A stretch of 64,000 nucleotides of DNA, taken from contig CANMSI010000002.1 of NCBI GenBank assembly GCA_947500575.1, positions 620,001 to 684,000 on the forward strand. The letters are read 5' to 3'. A program made the position numbers and the translations under genes. Of the stretch, positions 18,592 through 29,371 are shown piece by piece. Every line of letters starts with the position of its first letter. Within the stretch, counting starts at the first letter, position 1. The notes beneath the pieces were generated by a model, which worked only from the letters and a program-made list of their open reading frames with translations, made no database searches and was not told the DNA's origin. The stretch is from an uncultured Flavobacteriaceae bacterium (GTDB taxonomy: Bacteria; Bacteroidota; Bacteroidia; Flavobacteriales; Flavobacteriaceae).

Positions 18592-20067
18592 CTATACAAT
18601 GGGTTTCATTGCAGTCATAGAAGCTCTTAACCTACTTCCTACCACTTCTACCGGATGCTCTCTTAACGCCTTATTTACTTCAATTAGTTTTACGTTATCT
18701 ACTGCATTATCCGAATCTTTTCCGAATACAGTACCTATAACATCTACCTCTACACCTTTCATGAAGTTCTCTAAAAGAGGCTTACAAGCATGATCAAATA
18801 AATAACAGCCATATTCTGCAGTGTCTGAGATTACTCTATTCATTTCAAATAACTTTTTTCTGGCTATGGTATTTGCTATTAAGGGTGTTTCATGCAAAGA
18901 TTCGTAATAAGCAGACTCTGCAATAATACCAGATGCGGTCATGGACTCAAAAGCCAATTCTACTCCCGCTCTTACGAAAGCGACCATAATCACTCCATTA
19001 TCGTAAAATTCCTGTTCCGATATAACTACATCACCAGCAGGTGTTTTCTCAAAAGCTGTTTCTCCGGTAGCAGCTCGCCAAGTGAGTAAATTTGCATCAT
19101 CATTAGCCCAATCTTCCATCATTGTTTTGGAAAAATGTCCACTCATAATATCGTCCATATGCTTTTGAAATAAAGGACGCATAATATCTTTGAGCTCTTC
19201 GGATAGATCAAAAGCCTTTATTTTTGCGGGATTAGACAAACGATCCATCATATGGGTAATCCCTCCATATTTTAAACCTTCGGTGATGGTCTCCCATCCA
19301 TACTGAATAAGCTTGGAGGCATAACCCGCATCGATCCCTTTTTCAATCATTTTATTAAAACATACAATAGATCCTGTTTGCAAAAGACCGCAGAGTATGG
19401 TTTGCTCTCCCATTAAATCTGATTTTACCTCAGCCACAAAAGAAGATTCCAATACGCCAGCTTTATCTCCACCAGTGGCTACAGCATACGCTTTGGCTTG
19501 TATAAAACCTTTTCCTTCAGGATCATTATCTGGATGCACTGCTATTAAGGTAGGCACTCCAAAACCTCTTTTATACTCTTCTCTTACTTCTGAACCAGGG
19601 CATTTAGGAGCTACCATAATTACAGTAAGGTCTTTTCGAATTTGCATCCCCTCTTCTACAATATTGAAACCATGTGAATATGAAAGTGTCGCTCCCTGCT
19701 TCATAAGTGGCATTACAGCTTTAACTACATTTGTATGCTGCTTATCTGGAGTAAGGTTAATTACCATGTCGGCAGTAGGGATAAGTTCTTCATACGTCCC
19801 AACCATAAATGCATTTTCGGTAGCATTTTTAAAAGAGGCGCGTTGCTCTTTGATAGCTGCTTCTCTTAAGGTATATGAAATGTCTAATCCAGAATCTCGC
19901 ATGTTGAGTCCTTGGTTAAGTCCTTGAGCTCCGCACCCAACGATCACAATTTTTTTTCCTTTTAAGGCGGATACACCATCAGAAAATTCTCCTGATTCCA
20001 TAAATCTACATTTGCCTAGTTGCAGCAATTGCTCTCTTAATGATAGTGTATTAAAATAATTTGCCAT
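18592..20067 (-). CDS. ilvC: ketol-acid reductoisomerase, class II
   Basis: The 491-residue length marks the long class II form. The N-terminal Rossmann motif [11 protein letters not shown] (near residue 41) binds NADPH. The region [17 protein letters not shown] and the repeated C-terminal knotted domain follow. The enzyme converts 2-acetolactate or 2-aceto-2-hydroxybutyrate to the dihydroxy acid in valine, leucine and isoleucine synthesis, with Mg as cofactor. It lies 50 bases downstream of ilvN in the operon controlled by the leader at about 25.0 kb. Confidence 0.95.
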
Positions 20068-20117: not shown

Positions 20118-20645
20118 TTAGTGTTCTTGAAATTCATTTAAAAGTGCTGTAATGGGCATTTCCGCTTTGGAAACTGCTATTCTCCCAGACCTAACAAACT
20201 GCATAATTCCGAAAGGTTTTAAGAGCTGATGCATTTCATCTATTTCTCCCCTTCTGCCTGTCTTTGCCAAAACAAAAAACTCCCTTGCAACAGTTACGAT
20301 TTGGGCATTGCTTTCCTTAATTATATTCTGTATCTGACGTTCATCAAATAGCAAATCAGAAGCAATTTTAAACAAGGCAGATTCTTGATAAATAGTTTCT
20401 TCATCTGTATGATAAAAGGCTTTTATGACCTCAACTTGTCTTTCAATTTGACCCACAATTTTATGCGCTGTTTCTTCGGTAATAAAATTTACTACAGTAA
20501 ACTTTGAAACATTATCAATTTCTGATTTAGAGACATTTAAACTTTCTATATTCACGTGTCGCTTTAAGAATATTCCAGATATTCTATTTAGCAAACCTAC
20601 ATTGTTTTCTGAATACACTGATATGGTAAACCATTTCTTATCCAT
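20118..20645 (-). CDS. ilvN: acetolactate synthase small (regulatory) subunit
   Basis: The 175-residue protein starts with an ACT domain ([32 protein letters not shown], written here only as its start and end: [13 protein letters not shown] to NIESL), which binds valine or other branched-chain amino acids. The C-terminal half is the ALS small-subunit domain that activates the catalytic subunit. Length and layout are normal for IlvN/IlvH. It is separated from its catalytic partner ilvB by an intervening methyltransferase gene, which is unusual. Confidence 0.92.
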
Positions 20646-20662: not shown

Positions 20663-21244
20663 TTAACTTTTCTTTACACCAATAATAATTCCAGTAGACC
20701 AATTCATTTTGGTGATACTTAAATCTGTTCTATTTTCTAGTTCTTGAATCAGACTACTAGCCTTCTCTTCATGTCCCTCAGGCCAATTGCTTTGTGGCAA
20801 CATATCATCCACTACATAAAAGCCTCCTATATTCAACAGCGCTAAAACCTCCTCCAACTCACTGTATTTACCTGGCCATGAATCTGCAAAAATCATATCA
20901 AATCTTGGTCCCACATACGCTTTTAACCATGTTGAACCATCCGTGCAAACAAGCTCTATTCTTGGATCAGCTCCAAAATAGGTTGCGGCTATGTTTATAC
21001 ACTTTGGATCATTGTCTATTGAAATCAAAGAACCAACAGAGTCCATCCCATCAACCATCCAAGACAATGATAATCCAGTTCCAGTACCTAATTCTAAAAT
21101 TCGAGATCCGGGCTTTGAGACAACAATTGTTCTGAGCAAACTTCCTAGTTGCATATCAGAAGACATGTCGAATCCAATCGCCTTTGATCGTTCCTCGATC
21201 TTCGAATATGTATTTGGTTTGTCTAAAATGTTGAAATCGTTCAT
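20663..21244 (-). CDS. class I SAM-dependent O-methyltransferase-like protein inside the ilv operon
   Basis: The 193-residue protein shows the class I methyltransferase fold: motif I ILELGTGTGLSLSW at about residues 49-62, an acidic SAM-ribose contact near ISIDNDP (about 95), a DGSTW segment, and DMIFADSWPGKY with FYVVDDML after it. The arrangement resembles the catechol O-methyltransferase/YrrM group, whose metal site uses nearby Asp residues. The substrate is unknown. It fits tightly between ilvB (4 bases) and ilvN (17 bases) on the same strand, so it should be made with the pathway enzymes. It is not a known step of branched-chain amino acid synthesis. Confidence 0.75.
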   Translation of the reverse strand: MNDFNILDKPNTYSKIEERSKAIGFDMSSDMQLGSLLRTIVVSKPGSRILELGTGTGLSLSWMVDGMDSVGSLISIDNDPKCINIAATYFGADPRIELVCTDGSTWLKAYVGPRFDMIFADSWPGKYSELEEVLALLNIGGFYVVDDMLPQSNWPEGHEEKASSLIQELENRTDLSITKMNWSTGIIIGVKKS

Positions 21245-21248
21245 AATC

Positions 21249-22982
21249 CTATTTCAATCGAATATCCGAAACAGAGGCCCCCGAAGGAATCATAGGGAAC
21301 ACATTATCTTCTTTCTCCACTTTAACTTCTAAAAAGTAAGGTTCTTTAGATGCCATCATTTCTTGTATAGTAGCTTTTAAATCGTTTCGTTCGCTTACCC
21401 TCTTCGACTTAATATGATAGCCTTCTGCGATTTTCACAAAATCGGGATTTACCATGACGGTAGAGGCATATCGTTTTTCAAAAAATAGTTCTTGCCATTG
21501 ACGTACCATGCCTAAGTGGTCGTTATTTAATACCACAATTTTAACGGGAACCTGATGCTGAAAAATAACACCCAACTCCTGAATGGTCATTTGATATCCA
21601 CCATCTCCAATTATTGCCACTACCTCCCTATCCATAGCGCCCATCTTGGCGCCAATGGCAGCAGGTAAAGCAAAACCCATGGTACCCAAACCTCCTGATG
21701 TAATATTGCTTTTAGTTTGGTTAAACTTGGCATATCTGCAAGCAACCATTTGGTGTTGTCCAACGTCCGTTACGATAACAGCTTTGTTCTTTGAGGCCAA
21801 ATTAATCTCTTCTATAACCTCTCCCATGGTGAGACCCGATTTATTAGGAAACAAATCGTTCTTAATAACCGTATCAAATTCTATCTCATGTTTTTCTTTA
21901 AATAAATTATGCCATTCTTCATGACTATTTTCCTTCACTTTAGGCAATAGTAATTCCAATGTTTCTTTGGCATTCCCTAAAACTCCAATGTCAACTTTTA
22001 CATTTTTATTTATCTCTGCTGGATCAATTTCGAAATGAATAATTTTTGCTTGTTTGGCATAGGTTTCTAAACTTCCAGTGACACGGTCGTCGAAACGCAT
22101 ACCAATGGCAATCAACAAATCGCATTCATTGGTTAAAACATTAGGACCATAGTTTCCATGCATCCCTACCATTCCCACGTTTAGTGGGTGTTCTGTATCC
22201 ATTGCAGAAAGACCAAGAATGGTCCACGCTGCTGGTATTCCAGCTTTTTCCACTAAAGCTTTCAGTTGTTCCTCTGCTTGCCCCAAAATAACACCTTGTC
22301 CATAGACAATAAATGGTTTTTTTGCCGCATTTATTAAGCTTGCTGCGATATCAATTGCCTTTACATCGGGTTTTGGGACTGGATTATAGCTTCTAATGCG
22401 TGTACAGGGTTTATAACTAAAATCAAATTCCTCGAACTGAGCATTTTTAGTAATATCAATAAGTACTGGGCCTGGGCGTCCCGACTTTGCAATGTAAAAT
22501 GCCTTAGCTATAATTTCTGGTATCTCTGCCGCATGTGTAATTTGATAATTCCATTTGGTTACTGGAGTAGAAATTCCAATAATATCTGTTTCTTGGAACG
22601 CATCCGAACCTAATAAATGTCTTGGTACTTGCCCAGTAATGCATATCATAGGTGTTGAATCTATCTGTGCGTCTGCCAAACCTGTTACCAAATTAGTAGC
22701 TCCAGGACCAGAAGTAGCCATGGCTACACCCACCTTACCTGTTACTCTCGCAAAGCCCTGAGCTGCATGAGTGGCTCCTTGCTCATGACGTGTAAGAATA
22801 TGTGTAAGCTTATCCTGAAACTTATATAGTTCATCATAGACCGGCATAATAGCTCCTCCTGGATATCCATATATTAAATCGACTCCTTCTGCCAATAAAC
22901 AATGAATAATTGCTTCCGCTCCACTTATTTTAATGGTATTGGTCTTTGATTGCTCGGTTTTCTTTTCTCTTGTTGTTTCCAT
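21249..22982 (-). CDS. ilvB: acetolactate synthase large (catalytic) subunit
   Basis: This 577-residue thiamine diphosphate enzyme has the GYPGGAIMPVYDEL N-terminus, the catalytic Glu in RHEQGATHAAQGFAR, and the ThDP-Mg motif GDGGYQMTIQELG with NNDHLGMVRQWQ after it. It condenses two pyruvates, or pyruvate with 2-oxobutyrate, at the start of branched-chain amino acid synthesis. The start lies 2 bases after the ilvD stop, so translation is probably coupled. The regulatory subunit is ilvN, one gene further on. Confidence 0.95.
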   Translation of the reverse strand: METTREKKTEQSKTNTIKISGAEAIIHCLLAEGVDLIYGYPGGAIMPVYDELYKFQDKLTHILTRHEQGATHAAQGFARVTGKVGVAMATSGPGATNLVTGLADAQIDSTPMICITGQVPRHLLGSDAFQETDIIGISTPVTKWNYQITHAAEIPEIIAKAFYIAKSGRPGPVLIDITKNAQFEEFDFSYKPCTRIRSYNPVPKPDVKAIDIAASLINAAKKPFIVYGQGVILGQAEEQLKALVEKAGIPAAWTILGLSAMDTEHPLNVGMVGMHGNYGPNVLTNECDLLIAIGMRFDDRVTGSLETYAKQAKIIHFEIDPAEINKNVKVDIGVLGNAKETLELLLPKVKENSHEEWHNLFKEKHEIEFDTVIKNDLFPNKSGLTMGEVIEEINLASKNKAVIVTDVGQHQMVACRYAKFNQTKSNITSGGLGTMGFALPAAIGAKMGAMDREVVAIIGDGGYQMTIQELGVIFQHQVPVKIVVLNNDHLGMVRQWQELFFEKRYASTVMVNPDFVKIAEGYHIKSKRVSERNDLKATIQEMMASKEPYFLEVKVEKEDNVFPMIPSGASVSDIRLK

Positions 22983-22984
22983 AG

Positions 22985-24661
22985 CTATATCTCATCGGTT
23001 ACGCAGCCTTGGGAGGCAGAAGAAACTGTTTTTGCATATTTATATAAACTTCCTTTTCGAACTTTAAGAGCTGGCTTCACCCAATTTGCCATGCGCTTTG
23101 CTAATTCATCTTCTGACAAATTAACCGAAATACTGTTTTTCTCAGCATCTATTGTAATCATATCACCATCTTTTAATAAGGCAATAGTTCCTCCATCTTG
23201 TGCTTCTGGAGATACATGTCCAACTACAAAACCATGAGTACCCCCGGAGAATCGACCATCTGTGATTAGCGCAACACTTTTCCCTAAACCAGCTCCCATT
23301 ATTGCTGCTGTAGGTTTTAGCATTTCAGGCATTCCTGGGCCTCCTTTAGGTCCCTCATATCTTATAACCACTACATCTCCTTCCTTTACCAGGCCTTTTC
23401 CAATTCCCTCATTAGCTAAAAATTCATCATCGAATACTTTAGCTGGTCCTGTGAAATGTAATCCCTCTTTTCCTGTGATTTTAGCAACCGATCCTTCCGT
23501 TGCAAGGTTTCCGTATAAAATTCTTAAATGTCCTGTTTCTTTTATTGGATTAGCCAGTGGTTTCACTACCTGCTGCCCTGGTATTAGATCTGGAACATCT
23601 GCTAAATTTTCAGCAATTGTTTTACCAGCCACCGTTAAACAATCTCCATGTAACATTCCATTATTCAACATAAATTTCATAATTGCAGGAATCCCTCCAA
23701 CGCGGTGTACATCTTCCATTAAGAATTTACCACTGGGCTTTAAATCTGCTAAAAATGGTGTGGTATCACTTATTTTTTGAAAATCATCTAAATCAAAATG
23801 TATTTCAGCTGCTTTTGCAATAGCCAAAAAATGTAGTACTGCATTTGTAGAACCTCCCATAACAATTATGAGTCTAACCGCATTTTCCAATGACTTCCTT
23901 GTGATGATATCGCTTGGTTTTATATCATTTTCCAGTAAATAACGTAAGGCTTTACCAGATGCTATACAGTCTTCTTTCTTTGTATTCCCAACCGCTGGAT
24001 TAGATGAATTATAAGGCATAGCCATCCCCAAAGCTTCAATCGCCGAAGCCATAGTATTGGCCGTATACATGCCACCACAAGCACCTGCACCAGGACACGC
24101 ATTTTGAATAACATTTGTATAGGCTTCTTCATCCATTGTACCTGCAACTTTCTCACCCCATGCTTCAAAAGCAGATACTACATCTAATTTCTTTCCATTT
24201 AAGCAACCAGATGCAATAGTACCTCCATATACTAAAATAGAAGGTCTATTTAAACGAATCATTGCCATTAAAGCGCCTGGCATATTTTTATCGCAACCAA
24301 CCACAGTAACCAAACCGTCATAGTTCATTGCTTGTACTACCGTTTCCATAGAATCTGCAATAATATCTCTGGATGGCAATGAATAACGCATCCCATAGGT
24401 TCCCATGGAAATGCCATCACTTACACCAATGGTATTAAAAACCAATCCAACTAAATCACTAGAATTAACCCCTTCCTTCACCTCTTGGGCCAAATCATTC
24501 AAATGCATATTACAAGGGTTCCCTTCGTAGCCAGTGCTTCCTATTCCGATAAGGGGTTTTTTTAAATCATCAGTGGTTAATCCTATAGCGTGCAACATAG
24601 CTTGTGCAGCAGGTTGCGTTGGATCTTGGGTTACATTCTTACTATGCTTATTTAATTCCAT
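22985..24661 (-). CDS. ilvD: dihydroxy-acid dehydratase
   Basis: The 558-residue protein matches IlvD. Conserved iron-sulfur cysteines are visible in [21 protein letters not shown] and [12 protein letters not shown], along with [19 protein letters not shown] near the C-terminus. It dehydrates dihydroxy acids to the 2-keto acids in the third shared step of the pathway. It is the first structural gene of the operon. About 220 bases separate it from the leader-peptide attenuator, and a second promoter-like element lies in that gap. Confidence 0.95.
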
Positions 24662-24710
24662 TAATGTGTTCTTCTATTAGCGTAATTCAATTGTATTTGG
24701 GCGCTTTAGT

Positions 24711-24718
24711 CAAAGATA
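24711..24718 (-). promoter_or_regulatory. possible second promoter of ilvD (-7 element TATCTTTG)
   Basis: On the minus strand the sequence TATCTTTG fits the Bacteroidota -7 consensus TAnnTTTG. The upstream -33 element is weak (TTA at 18 bases or TTG at 15 bases). Transcription from here would give a leader of roughly 45 bases before ilvD and bypass the attenuator. Such octamers are common in AT-rich DNA. Confidence 0.35.
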
Positions 24719-24883
24719 CTTGTTTCCAAAACCCAATAATTTTAACATTTTCAACTGGTTCAAATCCAAGCGGTGCTGAGTTTCATTAACATTCTGAAAA
24801 TCAACACAGTAAAGTTCCCATATATATCATATTCAATTCTTTTGGAGAAGACTTCAAAAAGCCTGCTACCTCATGTTTTTCCA

Positions 24884-24950
24884 TAAAAAAAGCCTGTATC
24901 AAAGGGTATCTGATACAGGCTTCAAAAATTAATGCAAGACTATATCACCC
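24884..24950 (-). promoter_or_regulatory. transcription attenuator of the ilv operon (terminator plus antiterminator)
   Basis: On the minus strand, 24921-24911 (AGCCTGTATCA) pairs perfectly over 11 bp with 24901-24891 (TGATACAGGCT) around a 9-base loop and is followed by a T-run at 24890-24885. This is a strong intrinsic terminator about 220 bases ahead of ilvD. The segment at 24947-24940 (TGATATAG), which overlaps the stop codon of the leader peptide, can pair with the left terminator arm CTGTATCA (24918-24911) over 8 bp with one G-U, and GGG just before it can pair with CCC in the terminator loop. The two structures exclude each other, the hallmark of ribosome-mediated attenuation. Hand folding only; no energies were computed. 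Confidence 0.8.
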
Positions 24951-25001
24951 CCCTGAAGGAATAATAATGACCACACTAATGATATTGAAATTTACTTTCA
25001 T
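24945..25001 (-). CDS. ilvL: ilv leader peptide (18 codons, Ile/Val rich)
   Basis: The small frame reads MKVNFNIISVVIIIPSGG and then TGA. Five Ile and three Val codons fall in 18 codons, including the block IISVVIII. It ends on the antiterminator segment and 24 bases before the terminator hairpin. When charged Ile-tRNA or Val-tRNA is scarce the ribosome should stall in that block, leave TGATATAG free and allow the antiterminator; when it reaches the stop codon it masks this segment and the terminator forms. No Leu codon is present, so leucine is probably not sensed. The role is inferred from sequence logic known for enterobacterial ilv leaders. Confidence 0.8.
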   Translation of the reverse strand: MKVNFNIISVVIIIPSGG

Positions 25002-25006
25002 TAGTA

Positions 25007-25037
25007 CAAGGTTAAGGATTATTTGGTTACCTACAAA
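25007..25037 (-). promoter_or_regulatory. candidate promoter of the ilv leader
   Basis: On the minus strand TTTG (25037-25034) is followed after 19 bases by TAACCTTG (25014-25007). This fits the Bacteroidota pattern TTTG-N19-TAnnTTTG with one mismatch. The expected start of transcription is about 25003, only a base or two before the leader ATG at 25001, so the message may be leaderless. Confidence 0.5.
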
Positions 25038-25116
25038 AGATCCCCACTTATTTCTTAAATTCGACTTTTATTTATGTACCCTGAGCTTGCTATTGAGATA
25101 AACCTAATTGTATTTT

Positions 25117-25845
25117 ATGGAAAAGACTGTTACTGAAGCGATCTACTACAGAAGATCTGTACGTGTTTTTAAAGCTGATCATCCACTCGAAGACGAAAAA
25201 GTAAAACATTGCATTCAAAATGCAGTTTTAGCTCCAACAAGTAGTAATTTACAATTGTGGGAATTTCAACATATCACTGAAAAAGAAACACTAAAAAAAT
25301 TAACCAAAGCATGTTTAGGGCAAAATGCTGCCAAGACTGCCAATCAACTGGTCGTTGTAATTGCCAGAAAAGATCTTTGGAAAAAACGTGCAAAGTCAAA
25401 CATTAAGTTTCTAAAGGAGGTTTATGGAAATAAAAGTGAAAAGGATTACAGTAAACGAGAAAAATTTGCACTCGCTTATTACAAAAAATTAATTCCATCC
25501 TTGTACACAGATTTTCTTGGAATCCTTGGATGGTTAAAATTCATCTTATTTAGTGCTATTGGTTTCTTTAAGCCCATGTATAGGCAAGTACGACAATCAG
25601 ACATGCGTATTGTAGCACATAAAAGTGCTGGGCTAGCGGCGCAAAATTTTATGACTAGTATGGCCGCTATCGGCTATGATACGTGTCCGATGGAAGGTAG
25701 TGACACGCGCTTGGTGAAACAAATTTTAGGGCTTCCATGGGGAGCTGAGATTAATATGATAATTGGTTGTGGTATTAGAGAAGAAGATGGGATTTATGGT
25801 CCAAGGTTTAGAGTTCCTTTTGAAGAAGTCTATAAAAAAGTATAG
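25117..25845 (+). CDS. nitroreductase-family flavoprotein with hydrophobic insert
   Basis: The ATG at 25117 gives 242 residues; a TTG three codons upstream is less likely. The N-terminus (AIYYRRSVRVFKADHPL, then NAVLAPTSSNLQLWEF) is the FMN-binding pattern of nitroreductases. The C-terminal part has AAQNFMTSMAAIGYDTCPMEG and MIIGCGIREEDG. Family members use FMN and NAD(P)H to reduce nitro compounds, quinones or similar substrates. Odd here is a strongly hydrophobic stretch at about residues 129-151 in the middle, which could be a membrane contact or a substrate lid. It is divergent from the ilv leader and convergent with pxpC, 5 bases away. Substrate unknown. Confidence 0.8.
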   Translation: MEKTVTEAIYYRRSVRVFKADHPLEDEKVKHCIQNAVLAPTSSNLQLWEFQHITEKETLKKLTKACLGQNAAKTANQLVVVIARKDLWKKRAKSNIKFLKEVYGNKSEKDYSKREKFALAYYKKLIPSLYTDFLGILGWLKFILFSAIGFFKPMYRQVRQSDMRIVAHKSAGLAAQNFMTSMAAIGYDTCPMEGSDTRLVKQILGLPWGAEINMIIGCGIREEDGIYGPRFRVPFEEVYKKV

Positions 25846-25850
25846 AAACT

Positions 25851-26696
25851 TTAAACCTCTATTAATTTTAGAGAAATCTGATCTCCATATTTTTTTTGCG
25901 CCAAGATAGAAATTGCTTTTTTAGACAATTGTAATATTCTAGAATACCCCCCTGTAGTTTGCCCATCGCGCATAAGAATAATTATTTTCCCCTCTGAGGT
26001 TAATTGCACGGTCCCAGGCAAAGTTGCCGAAGTAAGCATAGAAATTTCATGTCCTTCTATAAATTCCTCTAATTGGTAGGCCATTCTATTGTTCTCTTTA
26101 GCAATGGTAAACTCTTTTGAAAAAAGTTGTTTTAGCTGTTTACCAGTAAGCTGTTCATATTCCGGACCTTTAGATACCGTAAGTACGCTTTCGCTAAAAA
26201 GCGACTCCATTTGGAGTTCTTGTAATTTTGATTCGAAAGATGGTGTGGTTATGTAGGGTATTTCCATATGATCCTTTAACCTGTTTAAAGAAGTTAGCGG
26301 CTTATAGAAAGAACGACTCCCTAAGACAAATTCAGTTTGAAATCCGCCCTTCACTGCCAAATAATTTCGAAACCCATTTTCTAGTTTTCCATAGGAGAGT
26401 ATATCCCCTGCTACAATTTTATAAATCTTATACAGTTGAACAGGTACATTATTAAGGGTAGTTTCCAGTTTTGCGCCCCCCATACATATATAGGTATCCT
26501 CTTCGAATACCAAGGTAGGACCTGTCATGGTAATTTCTAGGCACGCCGCTGTTGCATCATTCTCTAATAATTGATTCACATAAGTACTGGCCACCTGATC
26601 CATAGTCCCAGAAACTGGCACTCCCATATTTCTATAATTAAATCTCCCCCTATCCTGAATAGTGGTATAAAAACCCGCTTTTAGCACTTTAAGCAT
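25851..26696 (-). CDS. pxpC: 5-oxoprolinase subunit PxpC (biotin-dependent carboxyltransferase-like fold)
   Basis: The 281-residue protein matches the KipA/AHS2 family: FYTTIQDRGRFNYRNMGVPVSGTMD at the start (shown by its ends FYTTIQDRG and PVSGTMD), CLEITMTGP, and the C-terminal RDGQTTGGYSRI motif. With PxpA and PxpB it forms the ATP-dependent 5-oxoprolinase of prokaryotes, which opens 5-oxoproline to glutamate. It overlaps pxpB by 8 bases, so the subunits are translationally coupled. Confidence 0.9.
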   Translation of the reverse strand: MLKVLKAGFYTTIQDRGRFNYRNMGVPVSGTMDQVASTYVNQLLENDATAACLEITMTGPTLVFEEDTYICMGGAKLETTLNNVPVQLYKIYKIVAGDILSYGKLENGFRNYLAVKGGFQTEFVLGSRSFYKPLTSLNRLKDHMEIPYITTPSFESKLQELQMESLFSESVLTVSKGPEYEQLTGKQLKQLFSKEFTIAKENNRMAYQLEEFIEGHEISMLTSATLPGTVQLTSEGKIIILMRDGQTTGGYSRILQLSKKAISILAQKKYGDQISLKLIEV

Positions 26697-27426
26697 CTAG
26701 TATCGTTTTCTGAAGTTTAAAAATACCAACATTGGCTTCTATCTTTCGTAAATCGTATTCCCCCATAGAAACTTGATAAAATTGGACTTGATCTCCAACT
26801 TTCACGAAACAAGGAGGACTTTCTTCTATATCAAAAATTGGTATGGGGCAGTTTCCAATAATGTTCCATCCGCCAGGAGATTGTTGCGGATATATACCTG
26901 TTTGTTTTCCTGCTAATCCTACGGCCCCCTTTTCTACTTTTAAGCGGGGAATACTTCTCCTAGCTATTTCTAAACTTTTTGGCAAGCCTCCTAAATACAT
27001 AAAGCCAGGAAGAAAACCGATGCCATATATGGTATACGGTTTCTGTGTATGTTGTTTTATTAATGTTTCTTCAGACATTTTTAAATGATTCGCAACTTCT
27101 GCAATATCAATTCCAAAAACGGGGTCATAACAAACTGGTAAACGCCAAAGCACCTTAGTGGAGGTGTCGCTATTTGTTTTTTCCAAATACCATTGCTTTA
27201 ATTGTTTCTCTAAAGAGGAAAAAGAAATAGGTTGTTCTTTTGATATTAATGTAAGGGAATTATAGGCAGATATCGTTTCCCATTCCTTTAAAGAACTCAA
27301 CTTTGCTTTTAAAGCATCTGTAAAGCTTAAGATATCTTCTAAAATCTCTGTGCTAACCTGTTTAGGCCACTCAATAAGAATTGCGTTAGAACCAAAGGGT
27401 TTAATAGAAATGGGGAAATCACTCAC
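26689..27426 (-). CDS. pxpB: 5-oxoprolinase subunit PxpB (KipI family)
   Basis: The 245-residue protein belongs to the KipI/AHS1 family: YGIGFLPGFMYLGGLP and VGLAGKQTGIYPQQSPGGW are its signature regions, followed by the beta-rich C-terminus. It is the second subunit of the PxpABC 5-oxoprolinase, acting in the cytoplasm. Its start overlaps the pxpA stop by 4 bases (ATGA) and its end overlaps pxpC by 8 bases. Members outside such operons can act as kinase inhibitors (KipI of Bacillus), but the operon favours the enzyme. Confidence 0.9.
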   Translation of the reverse strand: MSDFPISIKPFGSNAILIEWPKQVSTEILEDILSFTDALKAKLSSLKEWETISAYNSLTLISKEQPISFSSLEKQLKQWYLEKTNSDTSTKVLWRLPVCYDPVFGIDIAEVANHLKMSEETLIKQHTQKPYTIYGIGFLPGFMYLGGLPKSLEIARRSIPRLKVEKGAVGLAGKQTGIYPQQSPGGWNIIGNCPIPIFDIEESPPCFVKVGDQVQFYQVSMGEYDLRKIEANVGIFKLQKTILDA

Positions 27427-28166
27427 TTTTTGATCTGAATTTGATGTTTGGGTAATTCTTTAGAAAGATACATCAATATTTCTAGAGCTGAAGGCGTATC
27501 CCCATGAACACAATAGGTATCTGCTAAGATGGAAATACTTTCGCCAGTAACCGTTACTACTTCTTGATCGCGGGCTATTTTAACCAGATGTTCTAATACT
27601 TCTTTTGGCTTTTCTATTAATGCCTTTGGCAACCTTCTGGATACCAAGCTTAAATCGGAATTATAACTTCTATCAGCAAATGCCTCTCTCTTCACCAAAT
27701 ACCCTTGATTTAAAGCCATTTTTTCTATTACGGAATTATAAGGTATATATACATAAGCGTTTCTTTTATAAGGAGCAATAGCTTTCAGGAAAATCGAAGC
27801 TAATGCCACATCTTTGGCCACATTGTTATAAAGAGCACCATGAGGTTTTATATGATGTAGTGGAACTCCTTCAGCATCTAATACCGATATCAAGCTTGCA
27901 ATTTGTTCTTGGATACTTTGCAACAAAATATCGTCTTCAATTTGCATGGATACCCTCCCGAAATTAATGGGATCAGGATAAGAAGGGTGCGCTCCTACTT
28001 TTATAGCATGCAATTTAGCGATGCGTACTACTTCTTGCATACTTTGCGTATTTCCTGCATGCCCTCCGCATGCAATATTGCAAGAAGAAATAAAAGGCAA
28101 TATCTGAGTTTCATTACCTATTCCCTCTCCTACATCACAATTAATATCAATACCTATTTGCTTCAA
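27423..28166 (-). CDS. pxpA: 5-oxoprolinase subunit PxpA (LamB/YcsF family)
   Basis: The 247-residue protein has the LamB/YcsF signature: IDINCDVGEGIGNE at the N-terminus, SCNIACGGHAGN, GAHPSYPD, then HIKPHGALYN. These Asp and His residues probably form the active site of the subunit. With PxpB and PxpC it hydrolyses 5-oxoproline to glutamate using ATP. The start lies 11 bases after the transporter gene, so the transporter and the enzyme are probably made together. Confidence 0.92.
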   Translation of the reverse strand: MKQIGIDINCDVGEGIGNETQILPFISSCNIACGGHAGNTQSMQEVVRIAKLHAIKVGAHPSYPDPINFGRVSMQIEDDILLQSIQEQIASLISVLDAEGVPLHHIKPHGALYNNVAKDVALASIFLKAIAPYKRNAYVYIPYNSVIEKMALNQGYLVKREAFADRSYNSDLSLVSRRLPKALIEKPKEVLEHLVKIARDQEVVTVTGESISILADTYCVHGDTPSALEILMYLSKELPKHQIQIKK

Positions 28167-28177
28167 GGCTTCATCTA

Positions 28178-29371
28178 TTAAAAAATACCAAAAACTTTTA
28201 AAATACTTCGCAAGCCCAACAAAACAGACAAACTAATAATGATAATTCCCGTCATGTTTTGAAAAACTGTGTTCTTGTATTTCCCAAGTACAGCAGTTTT
28301 ATTTACTACCCATAATAGAAAAATAGCAATAAAAGGCAATAAAATACCATTGGCTACTTGGGCAAACTTTATAATTTCTATTGGTTTTATATCAAAGGAA
28401 AGGAAAAACACACCTAATCCTAATATAAAGATCCAAACGCTTCTGAATTTAAAATCTTTTAACCCAGCTTGCCAACCAAAACAACTATTCACTACATAGG
28501 CTGCTGCAAGTGGTGCGGTAATGGCAGAGGTAATACCTGCTGCAAATAATCCAATACCCATAAAGTACTTAGCACTATCACCATACAAAGGCTCTAAGCC
28601 TTTTGCTAAATCTAATGCACTCGAAATTTCGCCTCCTTTAATTGTAGAAGCTGCCACTATTACCGCCATAGATACAAGTCCGCCCAAAGCAATGGCAATG
28701 AAGGTATCTTTCCTTGCCGTATTTAAATCGTCAATATGTTTCCACTTTTCACTCACCAAAGAAGCATGTAAGAACAAGTTATAAGGAACTACGGTGGTAC
28801 CCACCAAAGCAATAATGGTTAGGATACTATCTTGAGGGATACTAGGAACTAATAATCCTTTTAGAATTCCTATCAGGTTTGGTTTGGTGATAATTGCGGT
28901 CACCAAAAAGGAAAGACTCATTAGAATCACTAAAGAAACCAACACACGTTCCAATATTTTATAATTACCAATATAGAGCAACACAAAGGCTAAAACTCCT
29001 ATGACTAGGGGGTAGAAATTGCTAAATTTGGTTCCAAATAAGGCTTCCAATCCCAAAGTAGCACCTCCTATATTACCCGCCTCATATGCCGCATTTCCCA
29101 AGACGATAGCACTTAATATAAGACCCAATACGAGGTATTTTGATACTTTGTTGGGCAACGCCGCTTTAATTACTTCGGCCAATCCTTTTTGAGTTACTAT
29201 GCCTAGGCGAGCAGCCATTTCTTGTAAAACCAAAGTTGCAATTATAGAAAGTAACATAGCCCATAACAATGCATATCCAAAAGAGACACCTGCCAAAGTA
29301 CAGGCGGTTACTGTACCTGGCCCTATAAAGGCAGCCGCTACTAAAACACCAGGTCCTATTTTTTTAAACAT
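28178..29371 (-). CDS. Nramp-fold transporter with altered metal site, likely tied to 5-oxoproline use
   Basis: The 397-residue protein has about 11 membrane segments and clear Nramp similarity. The first segment should carry DPGN, which binds the metal ion, but here reads GPGT (residues 17-20). The sixth should read GATVMPHN, but here reads GTTVVPYN (191-198), so the metal-liganding Met and the following His are also changed. Transport of Mn or Fe is therefore unlikely. Related transporters (YcsG type) sit beside pxpA in other bacteria. An organic substrate such as 5-oxoproline fits the operon, but this is inference. It lies 11 bases before pxpA and 26 bases after the DUF2891 gene. Confidence 0.82.
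   Translation of the reverse strand: MFKKIGPGVLVAAAFIGPGTVTACTLAGVSFGYALLWAMLLSIIATLVLQEMAARLGIVTQKGLAEVIKAALPNKVSKYLVLGLILSAIVLGNAAYEAGNIGGATLGLEALFGTKFSNFYPLVIGVLAFVLLYIGNYKILERVLVSLVILMSLSFLVTAIITKPNLIGILKGLLVPSIPQDSILTIIALVGTTVVPYNLFLHASLVSEKWKHIDDLNTARKDTFIAIALGGLVSMAVIVAASTIKGGEISSALDLAKGLEPLYGDSAKYFMGIGLFAAGITSAITAPLAAAYVVNSCFGWQAGLKDFKFRSVWIFILGLGVFFLSFDIKPIEIIKFAQVANGILLPFIAIFLLWVVNKTAVLGKYKNTVFQNMTGIIIISLSVLLGLRSILKVFGIF

Follow-up and report, generated by a model that had tools for sequence, protein, structure and literature searches.

Sequence and comparative evidence for a ribosome-mediated isoleucine/valine attenuator, with a predicted near-leaderless leader and a putative second promoter, upstream of ilvD in a Flavobacteriaceae genome

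The window analysed here is a 64,000-nt stretch of an uncultured Flavobacteriaceae genome. Its minus strand carries the gene order ilvD-ilvB-methyltransferase-ilvN-ilvC (24661-18592). The initial annotation had placed an Ile/Val attenuator ahead of the ilv genes, and Pfam analysis bore this position out, with ilvD, ilvB, ilvN and ilvC downstream on the same strand. The upstream neighbour (25108-25845, plus strand) is divergent and nitroreductase-like, with matches below the curated cut-offs. The features of the locus were as follows.

18592-20067, minus strand: ilvC, ketol-acid reductoisomerase
20118-20645, minus strand: ilvN, acetolactate synthase small subunit
21249-22982, minus strand: ilvB, acetolactate synthase large subunit (Pfam TPP_enzyme domains; named from domains and position)
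22985-24661, minus strand: ilvD, dihydroxy-acid dehydratase (Pfam ILVD_EDD_N and ILV_EDD_C)
24711-24718, minus strand: predicted P2 -7 box TATCTTTG, behind the terminator, with its start expected close to 24706
24740-24746, minus strand: conserved GTTAAAA, 28 nt upstream of the P2 box
24885-24923, minus strand: intrinsic terminator, 3:4 hairpin 24923-24889 and T-run 24891-24885 (7 T); from terminator search and covariation
24911-24918, minus strand: region 3, within the left terminator arm; pairing partner of region 2
24940-24951, minus strand: region 2, which includes the leader stop and pairs with region 1 (24951-24943) or with region 3 (24947-24940, antiterminator)
24958-24966, minus strand: region 1, covering the final Ile codons and the beginning of the Pro codon, which pairs with region 2 (helix 1:2)
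24945-25001, minus strand: leader peptide ORF MKVNFNIISVVIIIPSGG, stop TGA (24947-24945); from direct reading, conserved frame and Ile/Val enrichment
25007-25014, minus strand: predicted P1 -7 box TAACCTTG; predicted start 25002, one base before the leader AUG
25034-25037, minus strand: predicted P1 -33 element TTTG (TTTG-N19-TAACCTTG at 25037-25007)

The O-methyltransferase-like gene between ilvB and ilvN (20663-21244, minus strand) had a homologue in 4 of 37 relatives. By coordinates, the homologue follows ilvD after 1.8-1.9 kb, roughly one ilvB length, in G001, G011 and G018, all of which carry an attenuator of the window's kind (type A, below); the copy in G014 was far from ilvD. Upstream, 25851-29371 (minus strand) holds a cluster of the 5-oxoprolinase genes pxpA and pxpB, a CT_A_B-domain gene and an Nramp-family transporter gene.

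Direct reading confirmed the leader reported initially, with an ATG at 25001 on the minus strand and 18 codons, five for Ile and three for Val. The terminator was likewise found at the reported site and with the reported T-run; its stem comprised 12 Watson-Crick pairs plus a G-U, that is 13 pairs rather than 11. It was the sole terminator-like site within 24500-25500 (one found, 0.6 expected), and its core CCTGTATCA-N3-15-TGATACAGG had a single occurrence in the 4.2-Mb genome. Folding of the 181-nt region gave a z-score of -3.7, equalled by 1 of 200 shuffles. As the initial annotation had proposed, the antiterminator segment TGATATAG (24947-24940) can pair over 8 bp, G-U included, with CTGTATCA (24918-24911). 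The annotation had missed a third helix, 1:2, in which GGGATGATA pairs with the stretch of the final Ile codons and the Pro codon. The calculated energies were -8.2 kcal/mol for 1:2, -12.9 kcal/mol for 2:3 and -20.3 kcal/mol for 3:4; by these values, 2:3 outcompetes 1:2 in the window when both are exposed.

The comparison covered 116 loci (L001-L117 except L022, which lay at a contig end; L001 is the window's own), each represented by at most 800 nt of the sequence preceding ilvD. They had been selected for highest ilvD identity and not at random. A strict rule, which asked for a terminator preceded by an ATG-started ORF no longer than 30 codons in which a stretch of eight contained five or more Ile/Val, was satisfied upstream of ilvD in 45 of 115 loci (the window's genome included, one N-containing locus left out), against 0/115 in each of eight dinucleotide shuffles and 0/115 on the opposite strand. 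A looser rule detected elements in 54 of the 116 loci, of which 22 were type A, 22 type B, 8 type B followed by type A, and 2 doubtful; 62 loci had none. The window's own element is of type A, whose terminator core is CCTGTATCA..TGATACAGG; type B has a CCTTCC..GGAAGG core and leaders such as MKKQILNIVSIMVIVIISQG. The doubtful loci L025 and L041, with a terminator and a hydrophobic ORF of other types, were dropped. The looser rule missed L034 (type A, found by motif) and perhaps L029 (type B terminator), and at least 6 of the 62 loci scored as having none carry an element more than 800 nt upstream (L013, L070, L087, L105, L113, and L114). Distribution among the loci was patchy, and the closest relative, L031, was one of those lacking an element within 800 nt.

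Type B and type A attenuators stood in series before ilvD, in this order, in L017, L020, L071, L098, L100, L101, L103, and L116. Three terminators in series were present before an aminotransferase-like gene in L151 (44-345) and in L152 (71-359, reverse strand reading); in both, the last two terminators had near-identical arms and similar Ile-rich leaders, as if duplicated. Where elements stood about 1 kb from ilvD, the intervening gene began like a branched-chain aminotransferase, which we presume it to be, in the seven loci read (L149, L150, L151, L152, L157, L161, and L162). In type B loci, for example L010, L027, L085, and L116, a small hairpin GTGATTATTTCAC was seen within the leader; judged by eye, its arms change together (GTAA/TTAC, GCGA/TCGC) and the encoded residues change.

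Two alignments were prepared: A1 contained 31 type A sequences, and A4 contained the window and 40 named loci, 7 of which repeat sequences of the first set. A search of 299 family genomes (the window's own included) with model R1, built from A1, gave 56 matches at E<1e-6 in 54 genomes. The 55 whose position was read (all but the one in G139) were located upstream of ilvD, with contig and strand in common. Their distance from ilvD was either up to about 400 nt or about 1.0-1.2 kb. In a sample of 295 genomes of the class, searched with filters that lose weak matches, E<=1e-6 was reached by two genomes, that of the window and another from its family. In the named set (the 80 with the highest identity out of 584), 40 of 80 ilvD loci matched at E<=3e-7, including loci of Maribacter, Arenibacter, Zobellia, Cellulophaga, and Tenacibaculum; one of them, L184, matched mainly by its terminator and had no ATG leader in A4. 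An R1 match at E<=0.01 was present in 137 of the 299 genomes, and the weaker ones were left uncounted. Among the matches listed, the weaker ones included opposite-strand echoes of the palindromic terminator. In the weak loci L154-L156 and L163-L168, mostly no Ile/Val leader with a terminator was seen; L154, in which an aminotransferase-like gene and then ilvD follow, may be a true weak case.

The 3:4 terminator was paired in 97.3% of cells in A1, with two-sided changes at 7 of 13 pairs (25 cells vs 7.2 in shuffles). In A4, whose pair percentages lean towards the structure because R1 was built from A1 and then found the named set, 98.1% of cells were paired, with two-sided changes at 8 of 13 pairs (24 cells vs 4.4). 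Helix 1:2 was paired in 89.9% of A1 cells and 95.1% of A4 cells, with 22 two-sided cells vs 8.4 in shuffles and 30 vs 10.0, respectively; the number of pairs with two-sided change was at shuffle level (4 vs 3.6 in A1, 5 vs 3.7 in A4), so that only cell counts and scores exceed the controls. The proposed 2:3 antiterminator was paired in 96.0% (A1) and 95.1% (A4) of cells, against 24-46% in slid controls (24-42% in A1). Compensatory change in 2:3 occurred in none of 247 cells in A1 (31 sequences) and in one of 327 in A4 (41 sequences; 0.2 in shuffles), values matched by 500 of 500 (A1) and 71-108 of 500 (A4) column shuffles. The relatedness of the sequences remains in both the slid and the shuffled controls. 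On this alignment evidence, helices 1:2 and 3:4 are backed by compensatory change and 2:3 by conservation. The expectation that both stems would show compensatory changes was thus borne out for the terminator; the antiterminator is conserved, with no covariation beyond shuffles.

Concerted evolution of the antiterminator is not claimed, as a duplex test of the preference of region 2 for its own region 3 was mixed. Type A region 2 formed duplexes of -10.1 kcal/mol with its own arm and -4.2 kcal/mol with type B arms, and type B was unspecific. Among four hand-picked divergent cores, those of L151 and L152 paired well with their own arm and equally well with type A arms, and those of L157 and L160 paired weakly. 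Over 64 elements, own duplexes averaged -8.5 kcal/mol, compared with -5.2 for shuffled region 2, and the own duplex beat 95% of other-type arms in only 36 of the 64.

Type A elements had first been picked by a terminator plus an Ile/Leu/Val-rich ORF, and 27 loci picked by the terminator motif alone served as a check. An ATG ORF of 12-22 codons with at least four Ile and Val codons, ending 8-45 nt before the terminator core, was present in 24 of the 27 (4.8% per locus by chance) and, once GTG was admitted as a start, in all 27 (9.7% per locus by chance). The leader frame is therefore kept among relatives, as had been anticipated for a functional leader. The ORF lay near region 2 in 24 of the terminator-picked loci; L059 and L095 start with GTG, and L071, which has no region 2 reaching 6 of 7 pairs, was unscored. 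Among 30 type A leaders, 28 had 15-19 codons, 28 had an ATG start, and 24 had their stop inside a TGATA/TGATG core. In the other six, the stop was outside this core and a GATA- or GGTA-like core was still present, which points to an RNA constraint apart from the frame.

The codons of the type A leaders were 24.7% Ile, 16.1% Val, and 8.4% Leu, compared with 6.7, 6.8, and 8.9% in ilvD, figures that lean towards enrichment since the selection used an Ile/Leu/Val-rich ORF. Ile and Val were thus enriched over ilvD and Leu was not, in keeping with the original suggestion that Ile and Val are sensed without Leu. Val was encoded by GTC in 59% of type A leader Val codons, vs 14% in ilvD. RNA pairing may be the cause of this preference, because many such Val codons lie in or near region 1.

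The strongly conserved terminator core (CCTGTATCA/TGATACAGG) would also suit a terminator switch that senses a protein or metabolite, either a riboswitch or the target of an RNA-binding protein, with the ORF incidental. This explanation is very improbable in view of the leader frame in the loci picked by terminator alone, and of the frame bias of the codons: in 60 type A and B leaders, 469 Ile and Val codons fell in the leader frame and 90 and 48 in the other two, although the selection favours the leader frame. The window and the loci of eight relatives gave no Rfam match at the gathering score either. Under a relaxed threshold, the matches at the element were far below threshold, with a best E of 0.97; Thr_leader scored 14.8 bits, compared with the 55 needed.

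A promoter-like box was located in front of the leader. In the window alone, the P1 pattern had 5 matches with 4.98 expected, so that it carries weight only through its fixed position across relatives. For this comparison, the start of type A leaders was defined as the most downstream ATG giving 14-22 codons, which brings L005 in and takes L002 out relative to an earlier count, and chance figures for promoter boxes were obtained from mononucleotide shuffles. A TAnn[ATC]TTG box starting 10-17 nt before the leader was found in 15 of 22 single type A elements (chance 1.8% per locus), at -13 or -12 in 13 of the 15. It was found in none of the eight type A leaders that stand second in tandem (Fisher p = 0.002 vs the single elements), and in 20 of 29 further named loci outside the first set and near ilvD (0.6 expected). 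The exact box was lacking in 7 of the 22 single type A elements and 9 of the 29 named loci.

That the intrinsic terminator present here merely ends upstream transcription, with no tie to ilv control, can be given almost no credence. The conserved promoter box and the leader lie between it and the upstream neighbour, and no gene ends at it, since that neighbour is on the opposite strand.

In Flavobacterium psychrophilum, the sigma-A box was placed at -12 to -5 of the transcription start (PMC9723704). Given this rule and the place of the P1 box, the first transcribed base should be that of the leader start itself or lie about one base ahead of it. The box ends 4-5 nt before most single leaders, and by this reckoning the leader mRNA should be almost leaderless, a feature absent from the initial annotation. 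Leaderless mRNAs were put at 5.5% in F. psychrophilum (PMC9723704), and about 3.7% of 5' UTRs were shorter than 10 nt in Bacteroides thetaiotaomicron (PMC7366714). Leaderless leader peptides have been described in C. glutamicum, S. meliloti, and S. lividans.

A second promoter-like box, P2, also new to the present analysis, was located behind the terminator. Of the 22 single type A loci, 20 had TAnnTTTG within the interval 15-65 nt ahead of ilvD (0.7 expected), and all 29 further named loci had it before ilvD. In type B loci it occurred in 1 of 22 (0.6 expected), and the relaxed pattern TAnnTT[TAC]G in 15 of 22 (1.7 expected); in tandem loci the counts were 3 and 7 of 8, respectively. Of 63 loci lacking an attenuator, 34 likewise had P2-like boxes near ilvD (5.2 expected). 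TTAAAA at the matching distance was present in 27 of the 45 loci having a P2-like box. The GTTAAAA ahead of P2 may be a regulator site; in the window's own genome, GTTAAAA-N14-26-TATNTTTG was not general, with 5 matches vs 10 for the reversed control. In L151, L152, and L157, the spacer was 30-37 nt and contained no P2 box, and none was seen in L149 and L150.

On a rival reading of these boxes, P2 drives ilvD and read-through is incidental, the leader region being chiefly an independent unit that ends at its own terminator and yields a short RNA, either a small RNA or the message of a peptide gene. P2 is at least as regular as P1 and is frequent in loci without an attenuator, and attenuator RNAs can act in trans, as reported for rnTrpL of S. 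meliloti (PMC7298713). The explanation is nevertheless unlikely, since ilvD is found downstream of 55 of the 56 strong R1 matches, on their own contig and strand, the control codons match the product pathway, and the mutually exclusive helices 1:2, 2:3, and 3:4 are kept. In addition, the attenuators of L151, L152, and L157 must gate what follows, as no P2 box is present there. Because the conserved box lies between the terminator and ilvD, an attenuator in the window can gate only part of the transcription. Attenuation is therefore unlikely to be the sole control of the ilv genes; most likely, expression in the window has a floor set by the predicted P2, on top of which the attenuator contributes a regulated share.

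The element is very probably a transcription attenuator of the classical ribosome-mediated kind that responds to charged tRNAs for Ile and Val, combined with such a P2 floor. The attenuator reading of the initial annotation is well supported by the leader frame, the covarying terminator, the conserved antiterminator pairing and the Ile/Val enrichment. The start sites, ribosome stalling, antitermination, amino-acid response, and P1 and P2 activity are inferred, as follows. RNA polymerase would initiate at P1, roughly one base ahead of the leader AUG, and the almost leaderless mRNA would take up a ribosome at once. When Ile or Val is scarce, the ribosome would stall in Val10-Val11-Ile12-Ile13-Ile14 and sit on region 1, leaving region 2 free; 2:3 would then pair, no terminator would form, and transcription would read through into ilvD-ilvB-ilvN-ilvC. 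When Ile and Val are plentiful, the ribosome at the UGA would cover region 2, 3:4 would form, and the transcript would end near 24885. Transcription from P2, behind the terminator, would provide a floor untouched by the attenuator.

The exposed RNA before region 4 was folded with the edge of the ribosome footprint assumed to lie 13 nt ahead of the A-site codon. All eight pairs of 2:3 formed with the A site at codons 1-14; pairing was partial at codons 15-16 and absent from codon 17 to the stop. The folding model fits stalling at Val10-Ile14 as the trigger. Since 2:3 wins even with region 1 exposed, the 1:2 hairpin is likelier to be a pause or timing element than a strong protector, and probably keeps polymerase and ribosome in step; a protector role would have to be kinetic, 2:3 being stronger than 1:2.

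In the same genome, a leader MRNRNTHHHFYTGTLAG with three adjacent His codons, followed by a terminator, was observed before hisG (L250, G000:C2 near 255081), so the attenuation mechanism is probably in wider use there. A Leu-rich ORF followed by a terminator was not found before leuC or two leuA-like genes; one Leu-rich ORF lay more than 1 kb before leuC, without a terminator.

Ribosome-mediated attenuation needs a ribosome close behind the polymerase, and Bacteroidota do not rely on Shine-Dalgarno signals, their start signals being unlike textbook ones. A near-leaderless leader would load the ribosome the moment the RNA is made. We tentatively propose, with confidence a little short of even, that Flavobacteriaceae have a distinct design for the control of branched-chain amino acid synthesis, consisting of a near-leaderless leader, one to three Ile/Val attenuators in series and, in single type A loci, a P2 floor. 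If true, this design would imply that ribosome and polymerase are tightly coupled at the 5' end of transcripts in Bacteroidota. The data provide sequence-level evidence for ribosome-mediated attenuation of amino-acid genes in this phylum and supply an RNA family missing from Rfam. The element is short, common in the family and made of fixed parts, and could give reporter access to coupling, leaderless initiation, stacking of attenuators and the bypass promoter.

The enterobacterial ilvGMEDA and ilvBN leaders resemble that of the window in their branched-chain amino acid control codons and alternative 2:3 and 3:4 helices. They differ in having a normal 5' UTR with a Shine-Dalgarno sequence and in the participation of Leu codons; they are not known to have a P2-type promoter straight behind the attenuator. 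The Ile/Val attenuator of Corynebacterium glutamicum ilvBNC (PMC11857589) is described with a leader of similar length (IlvL, 15 aa), transcription beginning a single nucleotide from the start of the leader, three hairpins and an ilv operon, all of which have their counterpart in the window, where the transcription start is a predicted one. It belongs to another phylum and has another sequence, IlvL adds two Leu, the operon begins with ilvB, and the system was studied experimentally, whereas the attenuator of the window is known from sequence. Salmonella mgtCBR (PMC3641672) has tandem attenuators with two leader ORFs before one operon, as in the tandem relatives; in these relatives both elements carry Ile/Val-rich leaders, and the window itself is not tandem. 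No ilv attenuator of Bacteroidota was found in the literature searched; a 2010 survey by Lopatovskaya and colleagues may overlap with the present findings. For F. psychrophilum, leader peptide attenuation was reported to be strongly indicated ahead of operons for amino-acid biosynthesis, with conserved 5' elements named for hisG and pheA (PMC9723704); the main text of that report contains no occurrence of 'ilv', 'isoleucine', or 'valine'. This earlier account of the class, which the initial annotation did not mention, is taken to concern the same family as the window's. The attenuation mechanism is thus known and the class already outlined for F. psychrophilum, and this Ile/Val attenuator is without an Rfam family; its special features are the predicted near-leaderless start and the predicted bypass promoter.
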